From Mediterraneibacter glycyrrhizinilyticus (lineage in GTDB: Bacteria; Bacillota; Clostridia; Lachnospirales; Lachnospiraceae), in the NCBI RefSeq assembly GCF_015560805.1, contig NZ_JADMSO010000001.1, positions 310,001 to 374,000 of the forward strand: a DNA stretch of 64,000 nucleotides, written 5' to 3'. The notes beneath the pieces are model-generated. The model had not been told where the DNA came from, did not search any database, and saw only the letters and a program-made list of their open reading frames with translations. The stretch's first letter is position 1. Each line of letters starts with the position of its first letter. Position numbers and translations under genes: made by a program. Shown piece by piece: positions 21,906 through 43,078 of this stretch.

Positions 21906-22016
21906 ACGGCAGTACCTCCAGGCATCGAACGTGAAATCACTTCCCATTGCTCGATTACATAGACGATGAACCCGGCATATCGGCTGTGATGTGCCGGAGA
22001 CGGTTCTGCCGTTTTT
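21906..22016 (+). terminator. Cloverleaf-like RNA element ending in a terminator tail
   Basis: An outer stem pairs 21906-21916 (ACGGCAGTACC) with 22002-22012 (GGTTCTGCCGT), one mismatch, directly followed by TTTTT. Inside are two arms: ATCGA/TCGAT (21924-21928 with 21951-21955) and CCGGCA/TGCCGG (21972-21977 with 21992-21997). This is a three-way junction plus terminator between dgpA- and dgpB-like genes. It may reduce transcription of the downstream genes or respond to a signal. I could not match it to a riboswitch class. Confidence 0.65.
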
Positions 22017-22076
22017 ATTGATTTATTGAAAATGTGAAAACAGATCTACAATAGATTTAAGGAGGAAATCAAAACA

Positions 22077-22472
22077 ATGGCTGGAAGACAGATTTACAAT
22101 CCGGACGGATTTAAGAATATCGAAGCAGACGGAAAAGTAACTGGTTTTGAATTTCAGTTCAAAGCACAGTATTATCGTGGAATCACACTTTCCATCGTAA
22201 GAGACATCAAAGTAAACGTAGACGGTGTGGACTACCCGAGAGAGGCAGTTCGTCTTACTGTAAACGGAGAGACATTTACTCTCGAAGAAATGCGTACCGT
22301 GATCGATTCCGATTACCGTTGGGAATTCGGCGACTATGCAACCGTATCTGTATTGACGGAGGGCGGACTTTCCAAAGGAAGCCACCACATCAACACACTG
22401 CAGATTATTGACCCGTCCTATATGCCGTTCCAGATCGAGGCGGTATGCGAGACAGATTTCGTGATTGAGTAA
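22077..22472 (+). CDS. dgpB: DgpB-like small (beta) subunit of C-glycoside deglycosidase
   Basis: 131 residues, predicted all-beta, no signal peptide. Features include YYRGITLSIVRDIKVNVDG, REAVRLTVNGETFTLEEM and LSKGSHHINTLQI, as in the C-glycoside deglycosidase beta-subunit (DUF6379-type) family. In characterised systems this subunit forms a hetero-oligomer with a TIM-barrel alpha subunit, and both are needed for C-C bond cleavage of the 3-oxo-glycoside. The alpha-like gene starts 13 bp downstream, consistent with a complex. AAGGAGG precedes ATG 22077. Assigned from remembered family features plus synteny. Confidence 0.8.
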   Translation: MAGRQIYNPDGFKNIEADGKVTGFEFQFKAQYYRGITLSIVRDIKVNVDGVDYPREAVRLTVNGETFTLEEMRTVIDSDYRWEFGDYATVSVLTEGGLSKGSHHINTLQIIDPSYMPFQIEAVCETDFVIE

Positions 22473-22485
22473 GGAGGAACAAAAC

Positions 22486-23544
22486 ATGAGTTACGATATT
22501 AAAAGAAGTGTTTCCCTGTACAGTTATCAGGATGAATATTACAACAAACAGCTTGATCTGGAAGGATGCTTAAGAGAAACCGCAAAAACAGGCGCGACAG
22601 GAGTAGAACTTCTGGCAGAGCAGATGATCCGCAGATTCCCGCTTCCGATCGAGGACGAAGCTTTCCGTGAGCAGTGGTTTGGATGGCTGAAAAAATATAA
22701 TCTGGAGCCGTCCTGCTACGACGCATTTTTGGAAAACCATATTTACGACAACCGTATGCTCTCCATCGGCGAGCAGGTCAATATGATGAAACGCGACATT
22801 CGTCTGGCATCCATGCTCGGATTTAAGAACCTGCGTACACTCGTTTCCACTCCGATGGACGTGATCGAGGGAAGTTTGGAATATGCAGAGAAAATGGACG
22901 TTAAGATCGGTCTGGAAGTGCACGCACCGTTCTCACTGAATTCCGGATGGGCTGACGGATATATGGAGATGATCCACCGCACAGGTACAAAGTATTTCGG
23001 ATTTATCCCGGATATGGGAATCTTCTGCAAGAACATTCCGGACGTTCTGAGAGACAAAGCAAGAAGAATGGGCGCATCCGAAGAATGTATCAAGATCGTA
23101 GACGATGCATATGCACAGAGAATCGAAAAAGGATTCGTGAAGATCAAATATGATCTGGATCTTGGAAAAGCCAACATGGAATACCGTATGGCTAACGGAA
23201 TGAAAGAGATGATGGAAGCCGTAGAAAAAGCAGGCGGCGGTCCGGCAGATATGATGTACGCGGGATCTTCTTTCACATATTCCTGGTCAGATCCGCAGGA
23301 TATCATTGACAACATTGATTACATTTTCCATACACATGCAAAATTCTACAATGTCCATGAAGATTATACAGAGACGGCAGTTGCGATCCCGGAAGTTGTA
23401 GAAGCATTCAAGAAAGCCGGATACAAAGGATACTTAAGTTCAGAGTATGAGGGCGGAGAGCACTTGAGAGCAGATATGGAAGTAGACAGTATCGAACAGG
23501 TAAGACGTCATCAGGAAGCAATGAGAAGAGCGATAGAGGGATAA
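22486..23544 (+). CDS. dgpC: DgpC-like catalytic (alpha) subunit of C-glycoside deglycosidase
   Basis: 352 residues, xylose-isomerase-like TIM barrel. Candidate metal ligands: Glu144 in GLEVHAP, Asp176 in FIPDMG, His282/His284 in FHTHAKF and Glu320 in LSSEYEGG. In the known systems a Mn2+-type centre here promotes deprotonation and elimination of the aglycone from the 3-oxo sugar. ATG 22486 is chosen because AAGGAGG precedes it; an ATG 21 bp upstream sits inside dgpB with no ribosome site. Longer than, and diverged from, the other TIM barrel at 19666. Whether the substrate is a C- or O-glycoside needs assay. Confidence 0.8.
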   Translation: MSYDIKRSVSLYSYQDEYYNKQLDLEGCLRETAKTGATGVELLAEQMIRRFPLPIEDEAFREQWFGWLKKYNLEPSCYDAFLENHIYDNRMLSIGEQVNMMKRDIRLASMLGFKNLRTLVSTPMDVIEGSLEYAEKMDVKIGLEVHAPFSLNSGWADGYMEMIHRTGTKYFGFIPDMGIFCKNIPDVLRDKARRMGASEECIKIVDDAYAQRIEKGFVKIKYDLDLGKANMEYRMANGMKEMMEAVEKAGGGPADMMYAGSSFTYSWSDPQDIIDNIDYIFHTHAKFYNVHEDYTETAVAIPEVVEAFKKAGYKGYLSSEYEGGEHLRADMEVDSIEQVRRHQEAMRRAIEG

Positions 23545-23548
23545 GATT

Positions 23549-24598
23549 ATGGAGAAAATGAAATTAGGAATCGTCGGATTTGGTTTCATGGGACACTGTG
23601 ACGCAGATATGATGGCTACATTTGATGAGATCGATCTTGTGGCAGTTGCAGATACCAATCCGGAACAGTTAAAAGACGCTCCGGAGGGAGTAGAGACATA
23701 CGGAAGCATCGATGAGATGCTGGAAAAAGCGGATATCAACGTTGTGATGGTATCCACTCCGAACCCAAGCCATCCGGAGATGGTAAAGAAAGCGGCTGCA
23801 GCGAAAAAGCATGTCATCTGTGAGAAACCGGCAGCGATGAGTGTTGCTGAGTTTGACGAGATGGTAGCGGCATGTAAAGAGAACGGCGTGATCTTTACCG
23901 TACATCAGCAGAGAAGATGGGATACCGACTACCGCATCATGAAAGAAGTTTATGATAAAAACATGGTCGGCGATATGTATGTGATCAAATCCCAGCTTTA
24001 CGGATTCAACGGAAACATGCATGACTGGCACGTATATCCGGAGATGGGCGGAGGAATGCTCTACGACTGGGGCGTTCATCTGATCGACCAGATGCTGGAT
24101 ATGGTAAAATCTGATATCGTATCTCTGTATGCAGACGTACAGAATGTCATCAATGAAAATGTAGACGACTACTTTAACATCATCATGAAATTTGCAAACG
24201 GCGTGACAGCCGAGATCGAGCTTGGAACATACTATCTGACACCAAAGCGCGGATGGTTCATCGGCGGAAACAAAGGATCTGCAATGATCGACGGATTTGC
24301 AGGCGAGGGAAAGATCGTGCGTACCGCACACTTGCTTGAAAACGTACCGGGCAAGATCACAATGACAGCGGCAGGACCGACAAGAAGCTTCGGACCGGCA
24401 GCTCCGGGACTGCTTCAGGAAGAACCGCTTCCGGAAGTAAACGTATCGCATAGAATGTATTTTGAGCACTTCCTGAAAGCATTTAACGGCGAAGAAGAAG
24501 TGATCATCAAACCGGAACAGGTAAGACGTGTTCTGTGCGTGATGGATGCGGTAAGAGAATCCGCACGTACCGGAAAAGCGATCGAATTTGAAAAATAA
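23549..24598 (+). CDS. Second Gfo/Idh/MocA oxidoreductase of the cluster
   Basis: 349 residues. VGFGFMGH (9-16) is the NAD(P) site, CEKPAAM (91-97) supplies the catalytic Lys, and YDWGVHLID (172-180, Asp173/His177) the remaining catalytic pair. It differs from the DgpA-like gene (MGHCDADMM rather than NQKHMPSL), so it is probably not redundant: it may oxidise a second glycoside class or reduce the 3-keto sugar after cleavage. It starts 4 bp after the dgpC stop, with its ribosome site in the end of that gene, so the two are coupled. Confidence 0.82.
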   Translation: MEKMKLGIVGFGFMGHCDADMMATFDEIDLVAVADTNPEQLKDAPEGVETYGSIDEMLEKADINVVMVSTPNPSHPEMVKKAAAAKKHVICEKPAAMSVAEFDEMVAACKENGVIFTVHQQRRWDTDYRIMKEVYDKNMVGDMYVIKSQLYGFNGNMHDWHVYPEMGGGMLYDWGVHLIDQMLDMVKSDIVSLYADVQNVINENVDDYFNIIMKFANGVTAEIELGTYYLTPKRGWFIGGNKGSAMIDGFAGEGKIVRTAHLLENVPGKITMTAAGPTRSFGPAAPGLLQEEPLPEVNVSHRMYFEHFLKAFNGEEEVIIKPEQVRRVLCVMDAVRESARTGKAIEFEK

Positions 24599-25463: not shown

Positions 25464-26915
25464 ATGGCAGATTATGAAACACAAATCGTAGTAATTGCAG
25501 GCGGTCCGTCCGGATTATCCGCAGCCGTTCAGGCAGCAGAAGACGGAGCTGAAGTCATCGTTGTAGAGAAAGCAGCGGCAGTCGGCGGCGCGGCAAACAT
25601 GGGAATGGGACCGTTAGGAATCGGAACGAAGTACCAGAAACAGAATATGATCGACATCAGCGTGGAAAAAGCATTCAATATGTTCATGGAATACACACAT
25701 TATAATGTAGACGCGAGACTTGTAAAACGTTACTTCGAGCAGTCCGGAGAGACGATCGAGTGGCTGGAAGACATGGGCGTAGAGTTCGAGGGAGCGTTCC
25801 GTTACTTCCCGAAATCAGAAGCAACATGGCATATTGTAAAGACAGATACAGGAATCGGACCGAGAGCGGCGTCCTTTATGAACAAAGCACTTTACGCGAG
25901 AGCACAGGAACTGGGCGTAAAATTCCTGTTGGAAACTCCGGCAAAGAAGATCATCAAGAAAGACGGAAAAGTAGCAGGCGTTCTTGCTACAGATAAAGAC
26001 GGAAAAGAGATCGAGATCGCATGTAAGGCAGCGATCATCTGTACAGGCGGAGCCGGATGCAACAAAGAGTTCATCGAAGAAGAGACAGGATACAAACACG
26101 GCGTAGATATGTTCAACTTCGCGATCCCGGGAATCATGGGAGACGGTCTGAAGATGGCATGGGAAGCAGGCGCAGACAAACTTCCGGTACGTATCGAACA
26201 GGCAGCTGCGATCGAGGGCGTGGACGATCTTCCGGGAAGCGTTGGAAATATCATGAGCCAGCCAAACCTCCTTGTAAACCTTCAGGGAAAACGTGTGATG
26301 AACGAAGACCATATGCAGAACACAACATTCCTTTCCAATGTGGCTTCTCACCAGAAAGGAAAAGTTGTCATCAGCATCATTGATTCTTCCATCGCAAAAT
26401 ACTACATGAAGAACGGCGTTGATAACGTAAGCCTTGTTCGTCCGGATCCGGATGTATCAGATTTCGTTGAGGGCGTAAAGATGGCACAAGCAAACGGAAA
26501 CGAGGGACTGTTCATTGCGGACAGCATTGAAGAACTGGCTGAAATGGTAGGAATCGATGTAGACAATCTGGTAGATACCGTAGATGAATACAATGATTTC
26601 TGCGACAGCACAGACGAAGAATTCTTCAAACCGAAGAAATATATGAGACCTCTGACAAAAGCTCCATACTATGCGGCACGGATCCGTCCGGGCGGATACG
26701 GAACAGTTGGCGGAATCCGTATCAACGAGAACTGCGAAGCATGCGATAAAGATTTCGAGCCGGTTCCGGGACTGTATGCGGCAGGCGCCGACGCATGTAA
26801 CATTTATGATGACAGCTACATGTTCTTACTCCCGGGTAACTCCATGGGATTTGCAGTAAATACCGGACGTATCGCAGGTATGAGCGCAGCAGAGTATGTA
26901 GAGGATGAAGATTAA
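25464..26915 (+). CDS. FAD-dependent oxidoreductase of the fumarate reductase flavoprotein type
   Basis: 483 residues. The dinucleotide motif reads AGGPSGLSAA (so the first Gly of GxGxxG is Ala), followed by VVEKAAAVGGAANMGMG. The C-terminal part has ARIRPGGYGTVGGIRIN and PGLYAAGADACN, as in FAD_binding_2 family reductases such as fumarate/urocanate reductases and ketosteroid dehydrogenases. No heme or flavin-transfer domain and no signal peptide, so it is cytoplasmic and needs an external donor, possibly the Fe-S module at 29.6-33.0 kb. It may reduce a C=C bond of the aglycone. AGCGAGGGAAAGAC precedes ATG 25464. The spacer before it (25296-25463) is very A/T-rich. Confidence 0.83.
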   Translation: MADYETQIVVIAGGPSGLSAAVQAAEDGAEVIVVEKAAAVGGAANMGMGPLGIGTKYQKQNMIDISVEKAFNMFMEYTHYNVDARLVKRYFEQSGETIEWLEDMGVEFEGAFRYFPKSEATWHIVKTDTGIGPRAASFMNKALYARAQELGVKFLLETPAKKIIKKDGKVAGVLATDKDGKEIEIACKAAIICTGGAGCNKEFIEEETGYKHGVDMFNFAIPGIMGDGLKMAWEAGADKLPVRIEQAAAIEGVDDLPGSVGNIMSQPNLLVNLQGKRVMNEDHMQNTTFLSNVASHQKGKVVISIIDSSIAKYYMKNGVDNVSLVRPDPDVSDFVEGVKMAQANGNEGLFIADSIEELAEMVGIDVDNLVDTVDEYNDFCDSTDEEFFKPKKYMRPLTKAPYYAARIRPGGYGTVGGIRINENCEACDKDFEPVPGLYAAGADACNIYDDSYMFLLPGNSMGFAVNTGRIAGMSAAEYVEDED

Positions 26916-29635: not shown

Positions 29636-31750
29636 ATGGCAGTGATTACAATTGACGGAACAAGACTGGAAGTTCCGGAGAATAAAAATGTGCTGGAATG
29701 TGCTCTGGATGCAGGCATCTATATTCCGCACCTGTGCCACCACAAAGACTTAAGCCCGCTTGGGTCCTGTCGGATGTGCGTGGTAGAAGTAGAGGGACAG
29801 GAGGGGGCGACCACATCCTGTACATTGAAAGCAAAAGACGGAATGGTGATCCATACAAAGACGCCGGAACTGGAAAAACTCAGAATGCTGGCGCTGGAGC
29901 TGCTTCTGACCGGACATCCGGAAGACTGTTCCACCTGCCCGAAATACGGAAACTGCGAGCTGCAGACATTGATCCAGTATATCGGACCGAAGACCGGACG
30001 TCTGAAAATGCGCACAAAAGGATTCCGTCCGCAGGAAGACAATCCGCTGATCCTGCACGATATGAACCGTTGTGTTCTCTGCGGAAGATGTGTGCGCGCA
30101 TGTAACGAACTGCGCGGTGTAAAAGTGCTTCAGTACCAGAAAAAAGAGATGGAGACTTATGTCGGAACCTTACATAACAAACTGCTGAAAGACGCGGACT
30201 GCCGTTTCTGCGGAGCGTGCGTGGAAGTATGTCCGACCGGAACGATCCGCGACAAGCTGATGAACAGCGAAGTGAAAAAAGAAGAAGCCGTTGTTCCGTG
30301 CCGTCACGCATGTCCGGCACACACCGACGTACCGCGTTATATCCGTCATGTGAAAAACGGAGAATTTGATGCGGCGGCGGCAGTGATCCGTGAAAAAGTT
30401 CCGTTCCCGAAAGCATTGGGATATATCTGTAACCATGTATGTGAACTGGAATGTAAGAGAAAAGAAGTCAGCGAAGCAATGTCGATCCGCAACATCAAAC
30501 GGTATGCGGCAGACCACGATACCGGATCCTACTGGAAAGGCAAAGGAAAACAGCTTGCCGATACCGGAAAGAAAGTCTGCGTAGTGGGCGCAGGTCCGGC
30601 AGGTCTGACAGCGGCATATTACCTGCGCAAACAGGGACATGACGTGACATTGAAAGAAGCGCTTCCGACCGTGGGCGGTATGATGGCATACGGAATCCCG
30701 TCTTATCGTCTGCCGAGAGAGATCATCGCAGAGGAAGCGAAAGTGATCGAAGAGCAGGGTGTGAAGATCGAAGTCAATACAAAAGTCGAGAAACCGGCAG
30801 AGCTTTTGAAAGAATACGACGCAGTGCTGATGACGATCGGCGGACATAAAGGCGTGCGTCTTCCGATGGAGGGAAGCGAGCTGGACGGCGTGATCTTAAA
30901 CGCAGATTTCCTGCGCAATGCAAGCATGGGAAATGAAACCGGAATCGGAAAACGGATCATCGTACTCGGCGGAGGAAACGTTGCGTTTGACTGTGCAAGA
31001 ACCGCAAAACGTCTCGGAGCGGAAGAAATCCACCTTGCGTGTCTGGAAGCAAGAGATGTGATGACCGCTGACGAGGAAGAGATCACACAGGCACAGGAAG
31101 AGGGAATCTTCGTACATCCGGCGCAGACATTTGAGCGGATCACAGGCGAAGACCATGTGACAGGTGTGGACTTCATGAATGTAAAATCCTTTACATTTGA
31201 TGAGAACCGTCGTGCGATCATCGAGAAAGAAGAGGGAAGCGAACATCATATCGACGCAGACACCGTGATCTTTGCAGTCGGACAGAGACCGGACATCACA
31301 GAAGAAGCCGGACTGGAACTGGGAAGAGGAAACAGTATCGTTGTCAAAGATATGGAAAAAGATAAAACGACTTCCGTGGAGGGAATCTTCGCGGCAGGAG
31401 ACGTGATCTACGGAACAAAATCGGTGATCATGGCGATCGAGTCCGGACGTGAGGCGGCAAGCCAGATCGATAAATATCTGGGCGGAGACGGAGACATTTC
31501 CGAGAAACTGGCTCCGGAACAGAATGCAGATCCGTATATCGGACAGTGCCCGGGATTCGGATACGAAGAACGGAAAGAGCCACAGATCGACGAGGCAGAG
31601 AAACGTCAGGATAATTTTAACTTATTCGACCATGGAATCTGCGATTCCGACATTTGCGCGGAAGCAGGACGCTGTCTGCAGTGCGATCTTCGTCTGCAGA
31701 TCTCCGGACCGAGACTTTGGGGCGATTTTACAGAGAATAAGGAGGCGTAA
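29636..31750 (+). CDS. NuoG-like ferredoxin region fused to a GltD-like FAD/NAD(P) oxidoreductase
   Basis: 704 residues in modular order: a 2Fe-2S ferredoxin domain (Cys34, Cys45, Cys48 and a later Cys), the NuoG-type HPEDCSTCPKYGNC cluster, two 4Fe-4S sites CVLCGRCVRAC and CRFCGACVEVC, then from about 220 a glutamate-synthase small-subunit-like part (CRHACPAHTDVPRYI, VVGAGPAGLTAAYYL for FAD, VLGGGNVAFDCARTAKRLG for NAD(P)) and a C-terminal Cys pair CLQCDL. It should take electrons from NAD(P)H through FAD into an Fe-S chain, or bifurcate them. The NuoF-like partner starts 3 bp later. Confidence 0.88.
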   Translation: MAVITIDGTRLEVPENKNVLECALDAGIYIPHLCHHKDLSPLGSCRMCVVEVEGQEGATTSCTLKAKDGMVIHTKTPELEKLRMLALELLLTGHPEDCSTCPKYGNCELQTLIQYIGPKTGRLKMRTKGFRPQEDNPLILHDMNRCVLCGRCVRACNELRGVKVLQYQKKEMETYVGTLHNKLLKDADCRFCGACVEVCPTGTIRDKLMNSEVKKEEAVVPCRHACPAHTDVPRYIRHVKNGEFDAAAAVIREKVPFPKALGYICNHVCELECKRKEVSEAMSIRNIKRYAADHDTGSYWKGKGKQLADTGKKVCVVGAGPAGLTAAYYLRKQGHDVTLKEALPTVGGMMAYGIPSYRLPREIIAEEAKVIEEQGVKIEVNTKVEKPAELLKEYDAVLMTIGGHKGVRLPMEGSELDGVILNADFLRNASMGNETGIGKRIIVLGGGNVAFDCARTAKRLGAEEIHLACLEARDVMTADEEEITQAQEEGIFVHPAQTFERITGEDHVTGVDFMNVKSFTFDENRRAIIEKEEGSEHHIDADTVIFAVGQRPDITEEAGLELGRGNSIVVKDMEKDKTTSVEGIFAAGDVIYGTKSVIMAIESGREAASQIDKYLGGDGDISEKLAPEQNADPYIGQCPGFGYEERKEPQIDEAEKRQDNFNLFDHGICDSDICAEAGRCLQCDLRLQISGPRLWGDFTENKEA

Positions 31751-31753
31751 GGA

Positions 31754-32953
31754 ATGAGTGCTTTGGAATGTGCAATGAAATTGAGCAGAGAAGAAGTCCT
31801 GGAACAGATCAAAACATCCGGACTTAAAGAATACGGACTGGAAAAAGAACTGCTTTCCGAACGTCTTGTCCGTGCGGTGGAAGAAAGCAAGGAAGAAGAA
31901 AAAGAACTTGGCGTTGTCGCTGCGCTGAATAACGCGGACACGACAGGCGTTCTTCTGGAAGTGCTTCTGGCAGATCCGCAGAAAGTCATGGAGGGGATCG
32001 CGATCGCAGCCTATGCGCTCGGAACAGAGAAAAAGGTGCTTTATCTTCCGGAATATGCGGCAGATAAGGAAGCTGCAGTGAAAGAAGCGGCAGAGCAGGC
32101 TGGCGTGGAAGTGATCGTAGGACTGGTCAATGTGCGCGCATGCAAGGGAAGCGCATTGCTCCATATCGTGACCGCTGCCGATCTGGCGGATACATTTGCC
32201 GGATGCTGTGAAGACGGCGTGTATGTATCGGTCAACGGAGGCGAACTGAAAAAAGTATCTGCAGAGACAAAAGTGTCCGAGCTGACAGAAGATGCGGCAG
32301 GCGCAAAAGGGTTCTGCATCGGATATGAATATTACGGACCGGAAGCGGCAGAGATGACATTGGAAGAAGTACATCCGGACAACGGTGTGATCCGTGTCCT
32401 GAAAGCTTCCGACTGTATCGTAAGCGAGACCGAAAAAGCATTGCTTGCGTCCCGCAAACAGAGCTGCGGAAAATGTGTATTTTGCCGCGAGGGACTTCTG
32501 CAGTTACAGTATATGCAGAAAGAGACGACCGAGGGAAGAGGAAAAGCGGAATTCCTTGATCTGACAAAGGAGATCGGGGAGGCGATGACGTATTCCACAC
32601 CATGTACGATGGGACAGGTTTCTTCGAAGATCGCTTTGAGCGCGGTGGAGAAATTCGAAAGCGAATTTACAGCGCATATCAAGAAGAAAAAATGTCCGGC
32701 AGGCGTATGCTTCTCGGAAGAAGTGATCTACATCGATCCGAAACTCTGTCAGGGATGCGGAGAATGTGCGGATGTATGCCCGAAAGACTGTATCGAGGGA
32801 AAAGCAAAATACATCCATATGATCGATGAATTTGACTGCGACCAGTGTGGAAAATGTATCGAAGCCTGCGATGCGGGGGCGATCATCAAGACATCGGGCA
32901 AAGTACCGAAACTGCCGAACCGTCTGACAAAAGTCGGAAGATTTAAACGGTAA
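31754..32953 (+). CDS. NuoF-like Fe-S subunit with degenerate flavin region and C-terminal ferredoxin
   Basis: 399 residues. The middle part follows NuoF (DPQKVMEGIAIAAYALG, then the SCGKCVFCREGL cluster and TPCTMGQ), and the C-terminus carries two 4Fe-4S motifs CQGCGECADVCPKDC and CDQCGKCIEACDAG. The NuoF FMN/NADH motifs (GRGGAGFPTG and NADEGEPG) are missing or replaced; the second reads NNADTTG. The subunit may therefore only carry electrons, leaving NAD(P)H oxidation to the partner. GGAGG before ATG 31754 lies in the end of the upstream gene. Last gene of the plus-strand run. Confidence 0.82.
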   Translation: MSALECAMKLSREEVLEQIKTSGLKEYGLEKELLSERLVRAVEESKEEEKELGVVAALNNADTTGVLLEVLLADPQKVMEGIAIAAYALGTEKKVLYLPEYAADKEAAVKEAAEQAGVEVIVGLVNVRACKGSALLHIVTAADLADTFAGCCEDGVYVSVNGGELKKVSAETKVSELTEDAAGAKGFCIGYEYYGPEAAEMTLEEVHPDNGVIRVLKASDCIVSETEKALLASRKQSCGKCVFCREGLLQLQYMQKETTEGRGKAEFLDLTKEIGEAMTYSTPCTMGQVSSKIALSAVEKFESEFTAHIKKKKCPAGVCFSEEVIYIDPKLCQGCGECADVCPKDCIEGKAKYIHMIDEFDCDQCGKCIEACDAGAIIKTSGKVPKLPNRLTKVGRFKR

Positions 32954-33291: not shown

Positions 33292-33399
33292 TACAAAATC
33301 TTAAATGGAATAGAACGGAAATGTACAAGAAACAGAGGCGTAAAGATGGTAGAATACGGACAATGAAGATTCTGTGATGAAATGGAAAAGGAGAAAAAT

Positions 33400-35215: not shown

Positions 35216-35237
35216 AAATCGGCGCGGATCAGTGAGG
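35216..35237. repeat. 22-bp direct repeat, right copy
   Basis: Identical to 33827-33848. Its right part contains the acpS stop codon (TCA on the plus strand at 35229-35231). Confidence 0.92.
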
Positions 35238-35612
35238 CGCGTATTCCGCCGCCGCATAAGCAACCGCATAATCGGTATCGTAAGAAAGGGAGATCATGAT
35301 CGTCGTGATCTTCTTTTCTTTTGCCAATTGTTCTGCCTTGCCGTGCAGTGAGACCTGTGGCTGTCCGTTTTCATTTTCCAGAATCTCGATCTCATTCAGC
35401 CGGATCGCATTTCCGTTTAAATTCAAAGCCTTAAAAACGGCTTCTTTCCCGGCAAAACGTGTGGCATAGCTGTACAGCGGAATCGGTCGGCTTTCGATCA
35501 GTTCGATCTCCGCAGGCGTATAGATTTTGCGGACAAACGGATCCAGCCGGTCCGATACCGAAGATTCGATCTGATGGATATTTAAAATATCGGTTCCGAT
35601 TCCATAGAGCAT
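35229..35612 (-). CDS. acpS: Holo-ACP synthase
   Basis: 127 residues, the usual length. YGIGTDILNIHQIE and FAGKEAVFKALNL are the two signature motifs that bind Mg2+ and coenzyme A; the enzyme moves 4'-phosphopantetheine from CoA to the serine of an acyl carrier protein. It lies in a two-gene minus-strand unit with a TetR regulator, divergent from a locus that encodes an unusual ACP (38499), so it may be dedicated to that ACP instead of, or besides, the fatty-acid ACP. AAAGGAGA precedes ATG 35612. Confidence 0.93.
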   Translation of the reverse strand: MLYGIGTDILNIHQIESSVSDRLDPFVRKIYTPAEIELIESRPIPLYSYATRFAGKEAVFKALNLNGNAIRLNEIEILENENGQPQVSLHGKAEQLAKEKKITTIMISLSYDTDYAVAYAAAEYAPH

Positions 35613-35632
35613 GAGAGAAGTCTCCTTTCGTT

Positions 35633-36328
35633 TTATGGTCTTTTGCCGCTGGCATCATATAATCCCTTGATCTTTTGTTCAAATTCCGGTGAAATGTTCC
35701 GCTTGAACGTCAGATATCCGGCGCCGACCCGCATCGTATTCAATAAGTTTACAACTTCCGATACGGATAAAAAGTCGGATTCATCGGATTCCAGCCAGAT
35801 CCGCGCGGCTAGGAAATGCAGTTCCGAAAAGGCTTTGACAAAGTAATTCCGCAGTTCGTCATGGGGCAGCCCGTCGGTATCCATCATATCGTTGATCGTG
35901 TCGATCAGCAGATATTTTAATTTCTTTTCAAAATAAATATCGCCGTTCTGTAAGTCGAGAAGCGCCCGGATCGCCTCCTGATTGTCTTTGCAGAAATCAA
36001 ACCAGACGATCAGATTTTGCGGCGGTTCGTAATCGAATTTTTCCAGAAATTCTTCGATCGGAAATCCGGAACGGGATTCGGCGGTAATCTTTGCAAAACG
36101 TGTCTGAATGTCTTCCAGCAATGTCTCCTGGATCTGCTCCATCAGTTCATAAATATCACTGTAATATTGATAAAAAGTACCGCGTGTGATCTCGGATCGG
36201 GCGCAAAGTTCTTTGACCGTGATCTTATCCCATTTTTTTTCGTCTATCAATGAAAGAAAGGTATGCACGATACGCTTTCTGGTCTGTTCGGATTTTGCGG
36301 TTTTTCCGGCAATAAAATTGTCAGCCAT
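35633..36328 (-). CDS. TetR-family transcriptional regulator
   Basis: 231 residues. The N-terminal helix-turn-helix spans about 14-60 (TRKRIVHTFLSLIDEKKWDKITVKELCARSEITRGTFYQYYSD); the rest is a helical ligand-binding domain without family-specific signals. Upstream of acpS and divergent from the CocE-ACP-Pta-MFS-OYE locus. The nested dyad at 36410-36460 is the likely operator, so it probably represses the divergent promoter and is released by an unknown ligand, perhaps the transported compound or an acyl-CoA. Confidence 0.87.
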   Translation of the reverse strand: MADNFIAGKTAKSEQTRKRIVHTFLSLIDEKKWDKITVKELCARSEITRGTFYQYYSDIYELMEQIQETLLEDIQTRFAKITAESRSGFPIEEFLEKFDYEPPQNLIVWFDFCKDNQEAIRALLDLQNGDIYFEKKLKYLLIDTINDMMDTDGLPHDELRNYFVKAFSELHFLAARIWLESDESDFLSVSEVVNLLNTMRVGAGYLTFKRNISPEFEQKIKGLYDASGKRP

Positions 36329-36407
36329 GCAAAAACTCCTTTCTACTACGTTTTTAAAGTTTAAAATCCGTATTTATTTTACTAAAGCTGAAGAAGAAAA
36401 GCAAGAA

Positions 36408-36435
36408 TTGAACACTTTTTTCAAAACTGTATGAT
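36408..36435 (+). promoter_or_regulatory. Promoter of the CocE-ACP-Pta operon
   Basis: TTGAAC (36408-36413), 16-bp spacer, TATGAT (36430-36435). The -10 sits at the centre of the nested dyad, so a bound repressor would cover the promoter. Confidence 0.6.
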
Positions 36436-36460
36436 TTGAACAGTTTGAGACAATGTGTTC
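36410..36460. promoter_or_regulatory. Nested dyad, probable TetR operator
   Basis: Two inverted repeats share one centre at 36435: outer GAACAC (36410-36415)/GTGTTC (36455-36460) and inner AAACTGT (36424-36430)/ACAGTTT (36440-36446). The 8-bp spacers between outer and inner arms are not complementary, so this is a protein-binding pattern rather than an RNA hairpin. Confidence 0.65.
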
Positions 36461-36569
36461 TGTCGATCTGGCCTGTATTTTTTTAAAATGATAAAAAAGA
36501 AATGATGCTAAGGTCAGGAACTTCTGCCCGGGGCATCTGATGAAAACACTGTCAGGAGGAAAAACACAA

Positions 36570-38312
36570 ATGGGTGAAGTAGAAAAAATCTTAAAAACAG
36601 TGGACATGGATGGAGAACAGGTGGAAATCTGGATGACCAAAATGATGGATCCATGTACCGCGGAAGAATTTGAGGCGATGTCTCTGGAAGAGCGTGAGCA
36701 CGCAAAAATCCAGCCGGCGCTCAACCAGCGTACATACAGCCCGGAAGACGGCATCATCTGTATGCAGGACGTTCCGGTAAAAATGCGCGACGGCGTGACG
36801 ATCTACGCAGATATTTACAAACCGGAAGCAGAGGGAAAATACCCGCTGATCATTTCCTGGAGTTTCTATGGAAAACGTCCGTTTGAGGGACAGGCAGAGT
36901 GGCAGATCATGGGAGTTCCGCCGCACACAGTATCCGATATGTCCAAGTTTGAAAGCCCGGACCCGGGATACTGGTGCCGTCACGGTTACGCGATCGCCAA
37001 TGTGGATCCGAGAGGAATCGGACATTCCGAGGGAGATTTCGTACAGTTCGGAACACAGGACGGAAAAGACGGATATGACTTTATCGAATGGGCAGCCGAG
37101 CAGGATTGGTGTAACGGACGCTGCGGTCTGGCAGGAAACAGCTGTGTAGCCATGACACAGTGGAGAATTGCCGCTCAGCAGCCGCCGCACCTTGCATGTA
37201 TCGCACCGTGGGAGTCTACAACCGATATGTACAGAGAATCTCTGTGCGAGGGCGGAATCCCGGCAAAGACATTCGTTGCATTTGTTATGCGTGAGGCATG
37301 CGGCCCGAACTACATCGACAACACTCCGATGAACCTGGAAAAATATCCGTTCGTAAACTGCACATACTGGAAAGATAAAGAACCGGATTTCTCCAAAGTA
37401 AAGATCCCGGTATATCAGACCGCATGCTGGAATCATTTCCATCTGCGCGGATCGATGAATGCATTCCGCAAATGTAAATCCCGCCGGAAATGGCTGCGCG
37501 CGCACAGAAACTTCGAGTGGCCGGATGCATACAGTAATGAGAATATCGAAGATCTGGAGAAATTCTATGCAAGATATCTGAAACTGGAGCGTAACGGCTG
37601 GGAACTGACGCCGAAAGTACGGATCGAAGTACAGGATGTCGGAGAGTTCAATTACCAGACAAACCGTGCGGAAGATTCTTTCCCGCTGAAACGTACAAAA
37701 TACGAGAAGCTGTATCTGGACGCTTCCGACAATTCGATGAAGACAGAGCCGGTCAAAGATGCCGCACATGTATCTTATGACAGCGCGACCGGAGAAGTAT
37801 GCTTTGATTACAAATTTGAGGAAGATACCGAACTGACCGGATATATGAAACTGCGTCTGTATGTGGCGGCGGAAAGCTACAATGATATGGATATTTTCGT
37901 AAACGTGCAGAAATTAAGCACAACGGGAGAATTCCTGCCGATCACATTGTTCGGCGAAGATCATCCGGGCGTATGGGGCAAACTCCGTGCTTCCAGAAGA
38001 AAATTGGACGAGAAACTTTCCACAGACTACTGTCCGGTACAGGCACATACATGCGATGAGAAGCTGACGCCGGGAGAAATCGTTCCGGTTGACATCGAAC
38101 TTGTTCCGACAAGCCGTTTCTTCCACAAAGGACAGCAGATCCGTGTACAGGTTTCCGGACGCTATATCCGCGGAGACTGGTTTGAACCGCTGACATGGGA
38201 TACCGACAATAAGGGAAATCACCTGATCTATGCCGGAGGAGAATATGAGTCATTCCTGCAGATTCCGGTGATCCCGCCGAAATTCCAGGACGGAGACATC
38301 ATCATCCGATAG
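36570..38312 (+). CDS. CocE/NonD-family alpha/beta hydrolase
   Basis: 580 residues. An N-terminal alpha/beta-hydrolase domain (VPVKMRDGVTIYADIYKP, RGIGHSEGDF) has the nucleophile Ser in GLAGNSCVAMTQW, and a C-terminal jelly-roll domain (DTELTGYMKLRLYVAAESYNDMDI, GQQIRVQVSG) matches X-Pro dipeptidyl-peptidase-type/CocE proteins. The family hydrolyses esters or amides of small molecules. ATG 36570 is chosen because AGGAGG lies about 9 bp upstream. First gene of the operon and probably its hydrolytic entry step. No signal peptide, so the substrate must be inside the cell. Confidence 0.87.
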   Translation: MGEVEKILKTVDMDGEQVEIWMTKMMDPCTAEEFEAMSLEEREHAKIQPALNQRTYSPEDGIICMQDVPVKMRDGVTIYADIYKPEAEGKYPLIISWSFYGKRPFEGQAEWQIMGVPPHTVSDMSKFESPDPGYWCRHGYAIANVDPRGIGHSEGDFVQFGTQDGKDGYDFIEWAAEQDWCNGRCGLAGNSCVAMTQWRIAAQQPPHLACIAPWESTTDMYRESLCEGGIPAKTFVAFVMREACGPNYIDNTPMNLEKYPFVNCTYWKDKEPDFSKVKIPVYQTACWNHFHLRGSMNAFRKCKSRRKWLRAHRNFEWPDAYSNENIEDLEKFYARYLKLERNGWELTPKVRIEVQDVGEFNYQTNRAEDSFPLKRTKYEKLYLDASDNSMKTEPVKDAAHVSYDSATGEVCFDYKFEEDTELTGYMKLRLYVAAESYNDMDIFVNVQKLSTTGEFLPITLFGEDHPGVWGKLRASRRKLDEKLSTDYCPVQAHTCDEKLTPGEIVPVDIELVPTSRFFHKGQQIRVQVSGRYIRGDWFEPLTWDTDNKGNHLIYAGGEYESFLQIPVIPPKFQDGDIIIR

Positions 38313-38337
38313 AAAGAACCGGCAGAAAGCATAAAAA

Positions 38338-38455
38338 GACCGCGCACGCTGTATCACGGCGCGCGCGGATTTCCGGCTAAGACGGAAATCCGATTTAAGC
38401 CGCGCCGCATACAATAAGCACAGCAAGCGCAGCAACCGCGGCGTGCGCAGAAAGT
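38338..38455 (+). other. G/C-rich structured spacer before the ACP gene
   Basis: Outer arms GCGCACG/CGTGCGC, a perfect 10-bp hairpin CGGATTTCCG/CGGAAATCCG (38366-38375 with 38383-38392), and a possible GGCGCG/CGCGCC pairing lie between the hydrolase and ACP genes. No T run, so not an obvious terminator; it may protect or separate the downstream mRNA. Confidence 0.5.
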
Positions 38456-38498
38456 AAAAAGAAAATATAACACAGAAAACAGAAGGAGAATCAAGATC

Positions 38499-38738
38499 AT
38501 GAGAGAAGAAGTATTAGCAAAAATCATTGAAAAAGCAAGCAAAATCTGGAATGCGGACGCTTCCGAGATGAATGAGAACACCGAGTTCGCAGCATTCAAT
38601 CCGAAATCCGCCAACTACTCCCAGATGACAACATTTCTGGAGGATGAATTCGATGCGGAAGTACCGTACCTGAACTTCAAACGCTGCAAAACATTCGGGG
38701 AAGCAGCAGACTATGTAGCAGAGTTACTGGATGAATAA
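38499..38738 (+). CDS. Atypical acyl carrier protein
   Basis: 79 residues, acidic, four-helix size of ACP. Aligning the conserved LEDEFD segment with the LEEEFD of E. coli ACP places Ser37 exactly on the phosphopantetheine serine, but the usual DSL motif is KSA. Most of the helix-II surface after it (NYSQMTTF instead of DTVELVMA) also differs. It should still accept phosphopantetheine, probably from the nearby AcpS, but may not serve the normal fatty-acid enzymes. AAGGAG precedes ATG 38499. Role as tether between hydrolase and Pta is inference. Confidence 0.78.
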   Translation: MREEVLAKIIEKASKIWNADASEMNENTEFAAFNPKSANYSQMTTFLEDEFDAEVPYLNFKRCKTFGEAADYVAELLDE

Positions 38739-38754
38739 TAAGGAAGGTGCCATT

Positions 38755-39762
38755 GTGAATACATTTATCGAGACAATGACAGAGCGGGCAAGACAGTGCC
38801 CGAAAAAAGTAGCGTTTCCGGAGACGGGAAATGCGGACATCCTCCGTACCGCACAGAAAACGAAAGAATCCGGAATCGGATTCCCTGTGCTGATGGGAAA
38901 TCAAGAAGAAATCGAAGCATTTGCCAAAGAAAACGGGATCGCGACAGACGGATTTACTTATTACGATTATACGGTGGAAGAAAACCGTCTTGTTCTGGCA
39001 GAAGAATATACGGCAGAACACGATGATTTCTCAGCAAAAGCTGTGGCAAGAAAATCCAAAGATCCGCTGAGGGCAGCGTTGTTTTTACTGAAACTGCACC
39101 ATGTAGACTGTGTGGCGGCAGGAAAAGAATATTCCACCGGAGATGTGATCTTTGAATCCATTTCGATCGTGGGAATGCAGGAGGGCGTGGAGAGCGTGTC
39201 CAGTCTGGGAATCGCTGATATTCCGGGATTTGACGGACCGCAGGGAGCTATGCTCGGACTTGCAGACTGTGCGATCACAGCGCAGCCGGACGCGAAAGAT
39301 CTGGCAGGGATCGCCATTTCCTCTGCGGACACCGTATCGAAACTGCTCGGATGGGATCCGAGAGTGGCGATGCTTGCATTTTCCACATGCGGAAGTTCCG
39401 AACACGAGAGTCTGGAAGTGATCCGGGAAGCGATCGGTATTGTGAGAGAGAGCCGGCCGGATATCAAGATCGACGGGGAGTTCCAGTTGGATTCCGCGAT
39501 CATCCCGCAGGTGGCAGAACGGAAAGTGAAGTGGGAAAGCGAAGTGGCGGGAAAAGCCAACGTCCTGATCTTCCCAAATCTTCATGCGGGAAATATCGGC
39601 GTGAAGCTGATCCAGATTTTCGGGCATGCCAATGCGTACGGTCCGGTACTTCAGGGATTTGCACAGCCGGTATGCGATTTTTCACGCAGCGCTCCGGTTG
39701 ACGAAATGCTTGGAAACGTAGCGATGCTCGTACTCCGTGCGGCGGCAGAAGATCTTGCATAG
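38755..39762 (+). CDS. pta: Phosphate acetyl/acyltransferase
   Basis: 335 residues from GTG 38755. ANVLIFPNLHAGNIGVKL and QPVCDFSRSAPVDEM are the PTA/PTB-family signatures near the C-terminus, and the N-terminus KKVAFPETGNADILRTA is also typical. Pta converts an acyl-CoA and phosphate to acyl phosphate. An ATG at 38731 overlaps the ACP stop without a ribosome site, while GTG 38755 has AGGAAGG 7 bp upstream, so I prefer GTG. No acetate kinase gene is adjacent, and placement behind an ACP raises the question whether it uses an acyl-ACP or unusual acyl-CoA. Confidence 0.88.
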   Translation: MNTFIETMTERARQCPKKVAFPETGNADILRTAQKTKESGIGFPVLMGNQEEIEAFAKENGIATDGFTYYDYTVEENRLVLAEEYTAEHDDFSAKAVARKSKDPLRAALFLLKLHHVDCVAAGKEYSTGDVIFESISIVGMQEGVESVSSLGIADIPGFDGPQGAMLGLADCAITAQPDAKDLAGIAISSADTVSKLLGWDPRVAMLAFSTCGSSEHESLEVIREAIGIVRESRPDIKIDGEFQLDSAIIPQVAERKVKWESEVAGKANVLIFPNLHAGNIGVKLIQIFGHANAYGPVLQGFAQPVCDFSRSAPVDEMLGNVAMLVLRAAAEDLA

Positions 39763-39815
39763 AATGCGGACGACAATCAGAAGAGTGAAGAGTAAGAGAG
39801 AAAGGACGCATATCT

Positions 39816-40973
39816 GTGAGTAAGGCAAAAAAAACAAAAATTATCATTACGATCATCTGCATCTCGTTTATACAGGGACTGCAGTTTTGTGTATCTCCGG
39901 TGCTGGGGATGATTCAGGAACATTTTCCGGAAGTCGGCGTCAGCTTTGTACAGATGCTCGTCACCGTGCCGACATTTTTGTCCATCGTTGTGGCGATCGT
40001 TTCCGGCTGGCTCGTTGTGAAAGTCAGCAAGAAAAAAATGCTGATCTTTGCGGGTCTGACTGCCGGAATCACCGGATTTCTTCCGTTTCTTGCGGATAAC
40101 TTCTGGCTTTTGTTCGCATCCCGTACGTTGTACGGCGTAGCGCTGGGACTTTGTATCGCATTGAACACTGCGGTTGTCGCGGAATTTTTCGAGGGCGATG
40201 AGCGGGTCAGTGTGATGGGAATCCAGGCAGCCAGTGTCGGAGCGGGCATGGTGCTTGTGACGACACTTGGCGGCGCGCTGGGAGCAATGGATTTTCATTA
40301 TGCTTACTATACAAATGTGATCGGATTTATCGCGATGATCCTGATCGCACTCTGTCTGCCGGAGACCGGAACGGTTGCGGTGAGCGGAGAAAATAAGATC
40401 GAGCTGAACAAGGACGTATATAAGACGGCGCTTCTCGGCGTGATCGAAATGCTGTTTCTGATCACATTTTCCACGAACATTTCCATGCATTTGTCGGGAA
40501 GTCTCTCAGGAAGCACGACCGTTTCGGGAAATCTGACCGGGATCTTTTCCGGCGCACAGATCGTGATCGGCCTGCTGCTCGGAGCGGTGACTAAAATCAC
40601 GAAGAAATATACGCTTCCGGTTGCGATGCTCTCATTCAGCGTGGGAGGACTGTTGTTGATCCTGTTCCCGTCGAACTATGTACTGTTGATGGTGGGAGCC
40701 GTATTCTGCGGATTCTCCCAGGGAATGTTCATCCCGACCGCGATGGTGGAAGTATCCAATGCAGTAAAACCGACATCCACGGCGATGGCGGCGGCATGTA
40801 TGACTTGCGGAAACTGCTTCGGACAACTGATCTCGCCGACACTTCTGAATACGACCGCAGGAGCCGTATTCGGACAGGTTACGACGACCAACGTATATAT
40901 CGTAGCGGTTGTCGGGATGACGATCGCAGCGCTGGTTGTGATCGCGGCAACAGCGAGAAAGAAGAAAGCCTGA
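39816..40973 (+). CDS. MFS transporter
   Basis: 385 residues, about 12 transmembrane helices. SGWLVVKVSKKKMLIFAG is the loop-2/3 motif; FFEGDERVSVMGIQAA resembles the corresponding site in the transporter at 27449, of which it is a distant paralogue. Starts with GTG; AAAGGA lies about 12 bp upstream, so initiation may be weak. In the CocE-ACP-Pta operon it probably imports the compound cut by CocE or exports a product. Confidence 0.85.
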   Translation: MSKAKKTKIIITIICISFIQGLQFCVSPVLGMIQEHFPEVGVSFVQMLVTVPTFLSIVVAIVSGWLVVKVSKKKMLIFAGLTAGITGFLPFLADNFWLLFASRTLYGVALGLCIALNTAVVAEFFEGDERVSVMGIQAASVGAGMVLVTTLGGALGAMDFHYAYYTNVIGFIAMILIALCLPETGTVAVSGENKIELNKDVYKTALLGVIEMLFLITFSTNISMHLSGSLSGSTTVSGNLTGIFSGAQIVIGLLLGAVTKITKKYTLPVAMLSFSVGGLLLILFPSNYVLLMVGAVFCGFSQGMFIPTAMVEVSNAVKPTSTAMAAACMTCGNCFGQLISPTLLNTTAGAVFGQVTTTNVYIVAVVGMTIAALVVIAATARKKKA

Positions 40974-40979
40974 CAGAGG

Positions 40980-41042
40980 CATACCCTCCATATGCGGAGC
41001 GGGAACTTGTTTCCAGACTGTTCCCAGCATATGGAGGGTATG
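40980..41042 (+). other. Perfect 16-bp inverted repeat between MFS and OYE genes
   Basis: CATACCCTCCATATGC (40980-40995) and GCATATGGAGGGTATG (41027-41042) are exact reverse complements; the spacer contains a further GGGAAC/GTTCCC pair. There is no T run. It may act as an RNA processing or stabilising hairpin, or as a protein site. Confidence 0.7.
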
Positions 41043-41107
41043 ATTTAACCATTGAATGATAAAAAAATAACAAAATATATTCCGAAAAACAAAAGGAGGA
41101 AGAAAAG

Positions 41108-43078
41108 ATGGGTGCAAAAAAATGGAAAGGGAAAGAACTGTATCCGCATTTGTTTTCCCCGCTTCGCATTGGGAATATCCGAATGAAAAACCGGATCATC
41201 GCAGCGCCGACCAGTCCGAGCATGATCACGACGGAGGGACATTTTACGCCGGAAATGATCGCTTATCTGGAAGAGAAAGCAAAAGGCGGCGCGGGTGTTG
41301 TCACATATGGAGAGGCGATCGTACATTCTGCGACAGGAAAATCACATAACAAGCAGCTGCAATTGGATTCTTTTGGTGTGAAACAGGGAATGGCACAGGC
41401 GGCGCGCGCGATCCACAACGCAGGAGCATACGCCAACATCCAGCTTTCCCACGGAGGAAAATACGGCGGACTTGCCAGCGTTGGCGGCGATCAGGATCGC
41501 TGTGATATTGCATACGGTCCGAGCCATGAGAGGACTCCGGCAGGAGAAGTACAGGAAATGCCGAAGGAATTGATCTTGGAAATTGTAGAATCTTACAAAA
41601 AAGCAGGAAAGTTGTGTAAAGACTGCGGATTTGATATGGTACAGGTTCATGCGGCTCATGGATGGCTGTTCTCCCAGTTCTTATCTCCTGTGTTCAACCA
41701 GAGAACCGATGAGTTCGGCGGAAGTCTGGAGAACCGGGCACGTTTTCTTATGATGGCGCTGGATGCAGTGCGCGAGGGCGTGGGACCGGAATTCCCGATC
41801 GAGATCCGTCTTTCCGGAGACGATCTGACCGAAAGCGGACTTGGACTTGCGGATTGTGTCGAAGTGGCAAAAATGGTGGATGATAAAGTCGATCTGATCA
41901 ACGTATCCTGTGGAAATCACGAAGATCCGGATATGTTCTGCAGAACCCATCCATCCGCATTTTATCCGCGCGGAGTCAATGTATATCTGGCGGCAGAGAT
42001 CAAAAAGCATGTGAAGACTCCGGTTGCCTGTGTCGGTTCTCTGAACGATCCGGCTCAGATGGAGGAGATCATCGCATCCGGTCAGGCAGACGTTGTGGAA
42101 ATCGGACGTGCGATCCTTGCAGATCCATATCTGCCGGAAAAAGCACTGTGCGGCTGTGCGGATGACATTACGCCGTGTCTGCGCTGCTACGAATGTTTTG
42201 GTGAGACCGGAAAGAGCGAGACAGTCAAATGTTCCGTCAATCCGACAATGGGACAGCAGCTTCCGGAGAAATATGGCAGAGCGGAAGCACCGGTCAAAAA
42301 ACGGGTTCTGATCGTAGGAGGCGGTCCGGCTGGAATGCAGGCGGCGCTTACAGCGGCAGCAAGAGGACATCAGGTGACACTGGCAGAAAAGGCTGATTGC
42401 CTCGGCGGAAATCTGTATGCGGCTTCGGCTCCTTATTTCAAGAAAGACATTGCGGATTTCTGCGAAGTGATGAAAAAACGTGTTGAGAGAGCGGCAGTGG
42501 AAGTACGGCTGAATACGGAAGTGACGCCGGAATTTGTCGAGGCGTTTGATCCGGACGCATTGATCGTGGCGATCGGCTCCAAAGAACTGGTTCCGGGAAT
42601 CAAAGGGATTGACGGGGCAAATGTGGTGATGGCGGCAGATGCAGAACTTCACCCGGAAAAACTCGGAAAACGTGTAGCGATCATGGGCGGAGGTCTTGTC
42701 GGAACAGAAGCGGCGGTATCTTTTGCTCATGAGGGTAAAACGTGCGCCGTGATCGAGATGCGCGATCAGGTTGCGGCAGATGCCAACTCTTTCTATCGTG
42801 GCGGATTGATGCCGGAAGTAGAAAAATCGGCAGAAATCTATACCAATACAACGGTAAAAGAAGTAACAGAAAACGGTGTTCTTTGCGAACGTGACGGAGA
42901 AGAACTTCTGATCGAAGCGGACAGCGTTGTATGTGCGCTTGGTTATCGCTCCGAGTACGATAAGGTAGATGCACTTTGTGAAAAAGTAGACGAATCTTAT
43001 GTGATCGGTGACTGCAGCAAAGTCGGACTGATCTATCATGCGGTAAATCAGGGATATTATACGGCGGTACGGTTGTAA
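41108..43078 (+). CDS. Old Yellow Enzyme-type FMN/4Fe-4S/FAD reductase (2,4-dienoyl-CoA reductase-like)
   Basis: 656 residues. The N-terminal FMN TIM barrel (FSPLRIGNIRMKNR, VQVHAAHGWLFSQFLSP) is followed by the iron-sulfur motif CLRCYECFG with a fourth Cys 12 residues on, an FAD domain (VLIVGGGPAGMQAAL) and an NAD(P) domain (AIMGGGLVGTEAAV). This layout is shared by 2,4-dienoyl-CoA reductase, BaiCD/BaiH and gut flavonoid reductases such as daidzein reductase. It reduces an activated C=C bond with NAD(P)H. Its place in a TetR-controlled operon and near the glycoside locus suggests an enone or aglycone substrate. AAGGAGG precedes ATG 41108. Confidence 0.9.
   Translation: MGAKKWKGKELYPHLFSPLRIGNIRMKNRIIAAPTSPSMITTEGHFTPEMIAYLEEKAKGGAGVVTYGEAIVHSATGKSHNKQLQLDSFGVKQGMAQAARAIHNAGAYANIQLSHGGKYGGLASVGGDQDRCDIAYGPSHERTPAGEVQEMPKELILEIVESYKKAGKLCKDCGFDMVQVHAAHGWLFSQFLSPVFNQRTDEFGGSLENRARFLMMALDAVREGVGPEFPIEIRLSGDDLTESGLGLADCVEVAKMVDDKVDLINVSCGNHEDPDMFCRTHPSAFYPRGVNVYLAAEIKKHVKTPVACVGSLNDPAQMEEIIASGQADVVEIGRAILADPYLPEKALCGCADDITPCLRCYECFGETGKSETVKCSVNPTMGQQLPEKYGRAEAPVKKRVLIVGGGPAGMQAALTAAARGHQVTLAEKADCLGGNLYAASAPYFKKDIADFCEVMKKRVERAAVEVRLNTEVTPEFVEAFDPDALIVAIGSKELVPGIKGIDGANVVMAADAELHPEKLGKRVAIMGGGLVGTEAAVSFAHEGKTCAVIEMRDQVAADANSFYRGGLMPEVEKSAEIYTNTTVKEVTENGVLCERDGEELLIEADSVVCALGYRSEYDKVDALCEKVDESYVIGDCSKVGLIYHAVNQGYYTAVRL

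Follow-up and report, generated by a model that had tools for sequence, protein, structure and literature searches.

The window analysed here is a 64,000-nucleotide stretch of the genome of Mediterraneibacter glycyrrhizinilyticus (C11:310001–374000; genome of 3.0 Mb, 99.8% complete). It carries a locus in which genes for a phosphopantetheinyl transferase (AcpS) and a TetR-type regulator diverge from genes for a CocE/NonD-type enzyme (CocE), an acyl carrier protein (ACP), a phosphotransacylase (Pta), a major facilitator superfamily (MFS) transporter and an Old Yellow Enzyme (OYE). All seven genes lie at the positions and on the strands given in a preliminary description of this DNA, and Pfam and NCBIfam concur with its assignments for six of them, the ACP being the exception. 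That description had left it to be seen whether the genome also holds a second acpS and a normal ACP, and it holds both: because two ACPs with the canonical DSL motif (contigs C22 and C23), a canonical Pta (C22) and another AcpS-family gene (C11:43522) are present, the ACP, Pta and AcpS of the window are extra copies. We suggest that, on balance, these genes probably belong to a catabolic module served by a private carrier protein, a module that recurs in many genomes and accompanies genes for flavonoid degradation.

The module occurs in two main arrangements, namely type A, with CocE–ACP–(AcpS)–Pta–(Buk), where Buk is a butyrate-kinase-like enzyme, and type B, with thiolase–DUF35–ACP–Pta–(AcpS)–(Buk). 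A third arrangement, ACP–thiolase–DUF35 with OYE and MFS genes, resembles type B in content. To count the partners of type A, named genomes were scanned with 14 ACPs and the best 80 of at least 143 stretches encoding a relative were taken; genes were recognised by homology search, since some Pta and AcpS genes overlap longer antisense frames. CocE is found around 64 of these 80 loci, Pta around 62, Buk around 54, a PucR regulator around 41, AcpS around 40, a flavone-reductase-like protein around 25, an FAD flavoprotein around 16 and NuoG around 15, as counted with score thresholds set by us and with profiles built from earlier loci, so that the sample, several of whose loci had been fetched earlier and many of which are truncated by contig ends, partly overlaps its own training set. 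CocE, Pta and Buk occur jointly in 50 of the 80, and together with AcpS in 36. When the same profiles and thresholds were applied to 20 canonical-ACP loci, all from Lachnospiraceae, CocE, Buk, AcpS and the flavone-reductase-like protein were each found at none of them and Pta at two. Most of the 80 loci are from Bacillota and Coriobacteria, while Anaerolineaceae, Deltaproteobacteria and Spirochaetes are each represented by one metagenome bin so named.

Homologues of the genes therefore do neighbour each other in other genomes, and the grouping, which the preliminary description was ready to give up had this not been so, is not refuted. What does not stand is its view of the OYE as a core part, rejected here because the gene is present in only 8 of the 80 loci; the OYE also scores 453.3 bits against the NCBIfam BaiCD equivalog model, under the 825-bit cut-off. 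Both Buk and the C-glycosidase context had been missed.

The carrier protein of the window has no Pfam match at E 0.001, and it scores 27.4 bits (E 2.9e-6) against the NCBIfam ACP model, under the cut-off of 66. Its AlphaFold2 model (mean predicted local distance difference test score 95.8) has the four-helix ACP fold, places Ser37 at the start of helix II (residues 37-51) and finds its best PDB matches among solved ACPs (template modelling score about 0.8). The weak profile match, the modelled fold and the helix-II serine of the model thus identify the protein as a probable ACP. It was correctly described as having KSA in place of DSL around the serine, and in 39 of 39 aligned module ACP rows, which were chosen and fitted with a profile of such non-DSL ACPs, a serine occupies the phosphopantetheine position and the Asp of DSL is replaced by K, A, T, E, Q, R or S. 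Among 397 genomes of the family, a profile made from nine module-type ACPs set module proteins (at least 75 bits) apart from the next matches (at most 69 bits) and gave 33 matches in 20 genomes; an order-level set of 392 genomes, overlapping the family set, added five genomes with a module ACP. These 20 module genomes are a minimum, as the cut-off of about 70 bits misses DUF35-fused ACPs in G230, G309 and, in one case, G343, and G230 and G309 are counted as lacking the module in the genome association tests given below.

The CocE of the window scores 218.8 bits against TIGR00976 of NCBIfam, over the cut-off of 66.3, and is similar across residues 72-578 to the solved CocE/NonD hydrolase 3ib3 (E 2e-98), which we take to be from S. 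aureus and for which we know of no ACP partner. Residues are numbered from the mechanical open reading frame, which begins at 36540; Table 1 uses the ATG at 36570, whose ribosome site is better. Since all 63 full module CocE rows keep Ser201 and His322, which align with the Ser and His of 3ib3, an acyl-enzyme would appear possible. His299, Arg320, Arg323 and Asp329 are likewise invariant in the module proteins, whereas 3ib3 differs at each of these positions.

CocE and the carrier protein are also tied by gene fusions. In 14 of the 65 CocE frames of the 80 best loci, ACP domains precede CocE in the same frame (two domains in 11 of them, for instance at L173, and one in three), which strengthens the earlier view of a dedicated ACP. 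In addition, one or two ACP domains follow DUF35 in four type-B loci (L186:9811-10629, L187:10031-11146, L188:13104-13946 and L189:9993-11081). The occurrence of such fusions in both the CocE and the DUF35 systems suggests that the ACP acts directly with the cleaving enzyme.

It had been cautioned that acpS is often a scattered housekeeping gene whose presence here could be a coincidence. The AcpS of the window passes the cut-offs of both the ACPS domain (58.3 over 25 bits) and TIGR00516 (66.5 over 59.8). An enzyme 52% identical to it is encoded between ACP and Pta in G110; AcpS lies within or near the set in 12 fetched loci, and a second, Sfp-like group does so in three more. At least two AcpS-domain matches are found in 32 of 200 family genomes, comprising 5 of 8 module genomes versus 27 of 192 others (p 0.003). 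In a tree with 17 AcpS-size enzymes of other family genomes, presumed to be housekeeping, and without seven rows of at least 175 residues (three module Sfp-like rows and four that are others' or the genome's own), seven type-A enzymes group together (support 90/89), as do four of type B (95/93). Both groups stand apart from 16 of the 17 presumed housekeeping enzymes; the seventeenth comes from a locus with thiolase, DUF35 and PucR nearby, where no ACP or Pta was recognised, and the branch of the L063 row is too long for placement. Module rows require 2 label changes on this tree against a shuffle mean of 9.5, and 0 of 500 shuffles were as low, a test that asks about label clustering only. Since module AcpS enzymes recur at the sets and group apart on the tree, the housekeeping worry is answered for the window AcpS, and the suspected coincidence is not borne out.

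The start of pta 16 bp past the ACP gene, as first described, holds given the GTG start at 38755, preceded by AAGGAAGG; residue numbers follow the mechanical frame, which begins at the ATG at 38731. Against the NCBIfam pta equivalog model the window Pta scores 244.6 bits, under the cut-off of 311.2. Its Ser318/Arg319 pair is kept in 92 of 92 module rows and aligns with residues 309 and 310 of MtPta, where, according to PMC6461089, Ser309 and Arg310 are catalytic in the Methanosarcina enzyme. Relatives with a layout similar to that of the window carry Buk directly after Pta (L053, L105–L107 and L110), with a TetR gene on the other strand in L105–L107; the TetR of L053 is 51% identical to that of the window. 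As a separate observation, at L045:10094-11923 and L146 the ACP stands right next to Buk and a SnoaL-like protein, and no Pta or cleaving enzyme was recognised there.

The window genome also holds a type-B module, a second ACP–Pta set that the preliminary description did not include. This set, on contig C7 (G000:C7, L041:2586-15251), comprises genes for PucR, thiolase, DUF35, ACP, Pta, Buk, a DUF1097-group protein, a GH3 protein and a flavone-reductase-like protein. Its kinase is butyrate-kinase-like and matches butyrate kinase 2. Cys100 and His385 are present in 23 of 23 type-B thiolases and align with the Cys (in the ACASG stretch) and His of the solved acetyltransferase 7yvy; the thiolase also has distant similarity to PhlC.

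The surroundings of the sets hint at the substrate class. Upstream of the ACP module in the window, DgpB-, DgpC- and oxidoreductase-type genes lie together at 20783–24598, which was likewise absent from the earlier account (Table 1). These genes, encoding a C-glycoside deglycosidase beta subunit (CGDB), a DgpC-like protein and GFO-type oxidoreductases, resemble the DgpABC set of Dorea strain PUE, whose genes and C-deglycosylation reaction are given in PMC11170127; DgpABC removes the sugar only, whereas the aglycone would be the target of the ACP module. CGDB scores above its cut-off in 14 of the 20 module genomes versus 19 of 374 others (p 1e-12), where the 397-genome ACP set and the 394-genome sets for CGDB and phloretin hydrolase were treated as one and matches below the curated cut-off were dropped (one genome for CGDB, two for phloretin hydrolase). 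The flavin reductase of the C7 module matches PDB 7D38 (E 1.8e-35), the flavone reductase FLR according to PMC7862272. Since CGDB, flavone-reductase-like proteins and phloretin hydrolase recur around the sets, the module accompanies flavonoid-degradation genes. At L185 the gene for phloretin hydrolase (PF18089) is flanked by those for ACP and Pta within an ACP–Pta–Buk operon; at L197 it adjoins the NuoG, NuoF and FAD partners, and the 18-kb stretch there showed no recognisable core module gene. In L197 the NuoF-like protein and the FAD flavoprotein share one 930-amino-acid frame (L197:5458-8247) that immediately precedes phloretin hydrolase, and together with NuoG they may form a single reductase complex. 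Separately, a phloretin-hydrolase-family domain ends an 818-amino-acid frame at L192:9428-11881, which has a weak FAD-domain match at its front. The flavonoid C ring is reduced by flavanone-cleaving reductase, and the OYE of the window may act on this ring, or on the sugar enone left by C-deglycosylation.

Table 1. The module and its upstream neighbours in the window (positions count from the first nucleotide of the window).
Feature	Position	Strand	Basis
Module-type AcpS (phosphopantetheinyl transferase), proposed loader of the window ACP	35229..35612	−	ACPS domain
TetR-type regulator	35633..36328	−	TetR_N 22.6 bits, slightly below cut-off 24
Candidate TetR operator, inverted repeat GAACAC...GTGTTC between tetR and cocE	36410..36460	.	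palindrome scan
CocE/NonD-type serine hydrolase-fold enzyme, proposed acyl transferase to ACP	36570..38312	+	Peptidase_S15+PepX_C / CocE_NonD
Dedicated acyl carrier protein, 79 amino acids, Ser37 (KSA) = expected phosphopantetheine site	38499..38738	+	weak NCBIfam match, fold
Phosphotransacylase (Pta), proposed acyl-ACP to acyl phosphate	38755..39762	+	PTA_PTB E 3.4e-84
MFS transporter	39816..40973	+	MFS_1
Old Yellow Enzyme / BaiCD-like flavin reductase, peripheral to core	41108..43078	+	Oxidored_FMN+Pyr_redox_2
GFO/IDH/MocA oxidoreductase, DgpA-type candidate	20783..21895	+	family match
C-glycoside deglycosidase beta subunit (CGDB, PF19906)	22077..22472	+	E 7e-40
Xylose-isomerase-like TIM barrel, DgpC-type candidate	22465..23544	+	family match
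Second GFO/IDH/MocA oxidoreductase	23549..24598	+	family match
FAD_binding_2 (fumarate-reductase-like) flavoprotein, recurrent partner	25464..26915	+	neighbourhood recurrence
NuoG-like Fe-S/flavin electron-transfer subunit, recurrent partner	29636..31750	+	neighbourhood recurrence
NuoF-like Fe-S subunit, recurrent partner	31754..32953	+	neighbourhood recurrence

We infer the substrate, the direction of flow, the acyl transfer to ACP, the use of acyl-ACP by Pta and the yield of ATP as follows. AcpS would arm the ACP with phosphopantetheine, and Ser201 of CocE would attack an acyl compound derived from a polyphenol, an aryl ketone (dihydrochalcone or acylphloroglucinol type) being most likely and an aryl ester less so, and form an acyl-enzyme. 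The acyl group would then be handed to the ACP thiol and not to water, with thiolase and DUF35 taking over the cleaving role of CocE in the sister set. Pta would exchange acyl-ACP with phosphate to give acyl phosphate, from which a butyrate-kinase-like enzyme, in the window genome only that of the C7 sister module, would make ATP. The module would in this way perform the cleavage of phloretin hydrolase while keeping its energy. We hold this mechanism as a whole with slightly more confidence than doubt. With nearly as much belief as doubt, we further propose that it represents a widespread and undescribed form of energy conservation in anaerobes, in which retro-Claisen C–C cleavage of polyphenol aryl ketones would be coupled through a private, AcpS-armed ACP to Pta, a butyrate-type kinase and ATP, and in which the unrelated CocE and thiolase/DUF35 enzymes would work on the same chassis, sometimes fused to it.

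Several observations weigh against this mechanism and its generality. CocE was not seen in 16 of the 80 loci, Buk is absent in 26 and AcpS in 40, some contigs being short, and the flavone-reductase-like, FAD and NuoG partners stand at a minority of loci only. In L111:8722-9864 and L112:8749-9864, a gene of the URO-D family, possibly for a methyltransferase, precedes ACP-Pta in the usual place of CocE. The window set is without its own kinase, the only Buk matches of the genome being the one on C7 and a weak one at the acetate kinase region, and the support of the type-A AcpS clade is below the usual 95. Phloretin hydrolase is found in 6 of 20 module genomes versus 19 of 374 others (p 7e-4), an association that is positive, so that the idea of the module and this enzyme being mutually exclusive was rejected; at L188 phloretin hydrolase and the thiolase set even share one cluster.

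Doubt also attaches to the use of acyl-ACP by Pta. At two positions, one of them equivalent to MtPta Arg133, which lies at the coenzyme A (CoA) site according to PMC6461089, Arg is present in 10 of 10 canonical Ptas and in 0 of 30 module Pta rows. Two Ptb-like controls, labelled by lower PTA_PTB scores only and the two usable ones of four loci offered (one had no frame and one was another gene), lack arginines at both positions as well; the test is therefore only suggestive of ACP use, and the loss of these residues was dropped as proof of it. An indecisive CoA-site comparison leaves room for the notion that the ACP serves CocE only, for example by CocE freeing an acyl group from it, while Pta and the kinase use CoA thioesters made elsewhere. 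We give this notion very little weight, since ACP and Pta occur together in 11 of the 80 loci without CocE, Buk or thiolase (two with AcpS), so that the ACP–Pta pair looks like the unit, although the same loci depart from the full set that we propose; this make-up is seen at L157, L161, L165, L168, L169, L176, L177, L182 and L184, mostly from ruminant-gut bins.

The same module, with the same ACP and ATP logic, might instead break an ester bond (hydroxycinnamoyl, galloyl or other aryl ester) rather than a C–C bond, as would be expected of the CocE family, given that CocE and most of its PDB relatives are named esterases and that BD-FAE-type esterase genes occur in L043 and L065, the former also with acyl-CoA dehydrogenase, Etf and AMP-ligase genes. 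However, in the sister module a thiolase takes the position of CocE, the same operons contain phloretin hydrolase, a member of a C–C hydrolase family, and alkyl esters could, from general thermodynamics, hardly pay for ATP; we thus consider ester cleavage unlikely. Quite improbable in our view is a reverse flow, in which kinase and Pta would load a carboxylic acid on the ACP and CocE or thiolase/DUF35 would acylate a polyphenol or other acceptor in the manner of PhlACB. The distant similarity of the thiolase to PhlC is in line with such a flow, and Pta and the kinases are reversible, but the neighbours (C-glycosidases, flavone-reductase-like enzymes, MFS transporters and phloretin hydrolase) look degradative. 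Finally, the locus could be a coincidence of housekeeping genes, combining a stray AcpS with a divergent copy of a common acpP–pta neighbourhood. In favour of this, about 3.4 kb separates the canonical Pta on C22 from one of the canonical ACPs, and Pta was near the canonical ACP in two of the 20 control loci. This explanation is largely refuted and hardly credible given the absence of CocE, Buk and AcpS from those controls, the ACP–CocE fusions and the separate sequence groups of both ACP and AcpS.

Parts of the proposed catabolic module have clear counterparts among known systems. Pta–acetate/butyrate kinase phosphorylation involves the same two enzyme families, as reflected in the conserved Ser/Arg pair of Pta and the match of the C7 kinase, but the module differs in having a dedicated ACP, an AcpS of its own within or next to the operon and, in some relatives, an ACP-fused acyl-cleaving enzyme. 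PlsX, an acyl-ACP:phosphate transacylase that serves phospholipid synthesis, carries out the step from acyl-ACP to acyl phosphate proposed here for Pta, whereas the window protein is a PTA_PTB member. The ACP subunits of citrate lyase and malonate decarboxylase are dedicated catabolic ACPs with a special CoA-derived prosthetic group and lyases of their own, unlike the module with its AcpS, CocE, Pta and Buk. Phloretin hydrolase, the known end enzyme, hydrolyses to the free acid; its family, which includes 2,4-diacetylphloroglucinol hydrolase, shares some polyphenol loci and the proposed substrate class with the module, but it differs from the CocE family, and PF18089 has no match in the window genome at E 1. 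PhlACB of 2,4-diacetylphloroglucinol, which is biosynthetic and has no ACP, Pta or kinase, resembles only the sister set, as it combines a thiolase with a zinc-ribbon partner that act on acylphloroglucinols. Among the matches listed from the open-licence PMC literature, a scope that leaves subscription papers and preprints outside, no description of the gene set was found in the parts searched, and a term search for 'acyl carrier' gave nothing in the available portions of PMC11170127, PMC7862272 and PMC10470551. The parts are of known families, while the system matches no known one that we could name.

If the proposal is true, carrier-linked flavonoid cleavage could favour the growth of gut anaerobes by about one ATP for each molecule, and it would be a rare case of a catabolic ACP. 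Furthermore, many genes with the general names 'CocE/NonD', 'Pta' and 'acpS' would gain a function, and the module could serve as a genomic marker for polyphenol degraders without phloretin hydrolase.

Some further features of the window deserve mention. A palindrome similar to the candidate operator in Table 1 is found 5' of cocE in L113; as this was the only locus with a similar one and none was consistent in six other loci examined, a conserved TetR operator was rejected. Between AcpS and a small Glyoxalase_4/VOC protein (33382-33846) with distant likeness to methylmalonyl-CoA epimerase lies an AAA_14/DUF4143 ATPase gene (34012-35211), which matches the PADLOC candidate-defence model PDC-S01 (E 5e-151) and may be an insertion in the island. 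On the other side of the locus, a protein of 810 amino acids without a Pfam match (44567-46999) is encoded 3' of an AraC regulator; the genes after it specify an MFS_2 sugar transporter and a pair of sensor kinase and response regulator.

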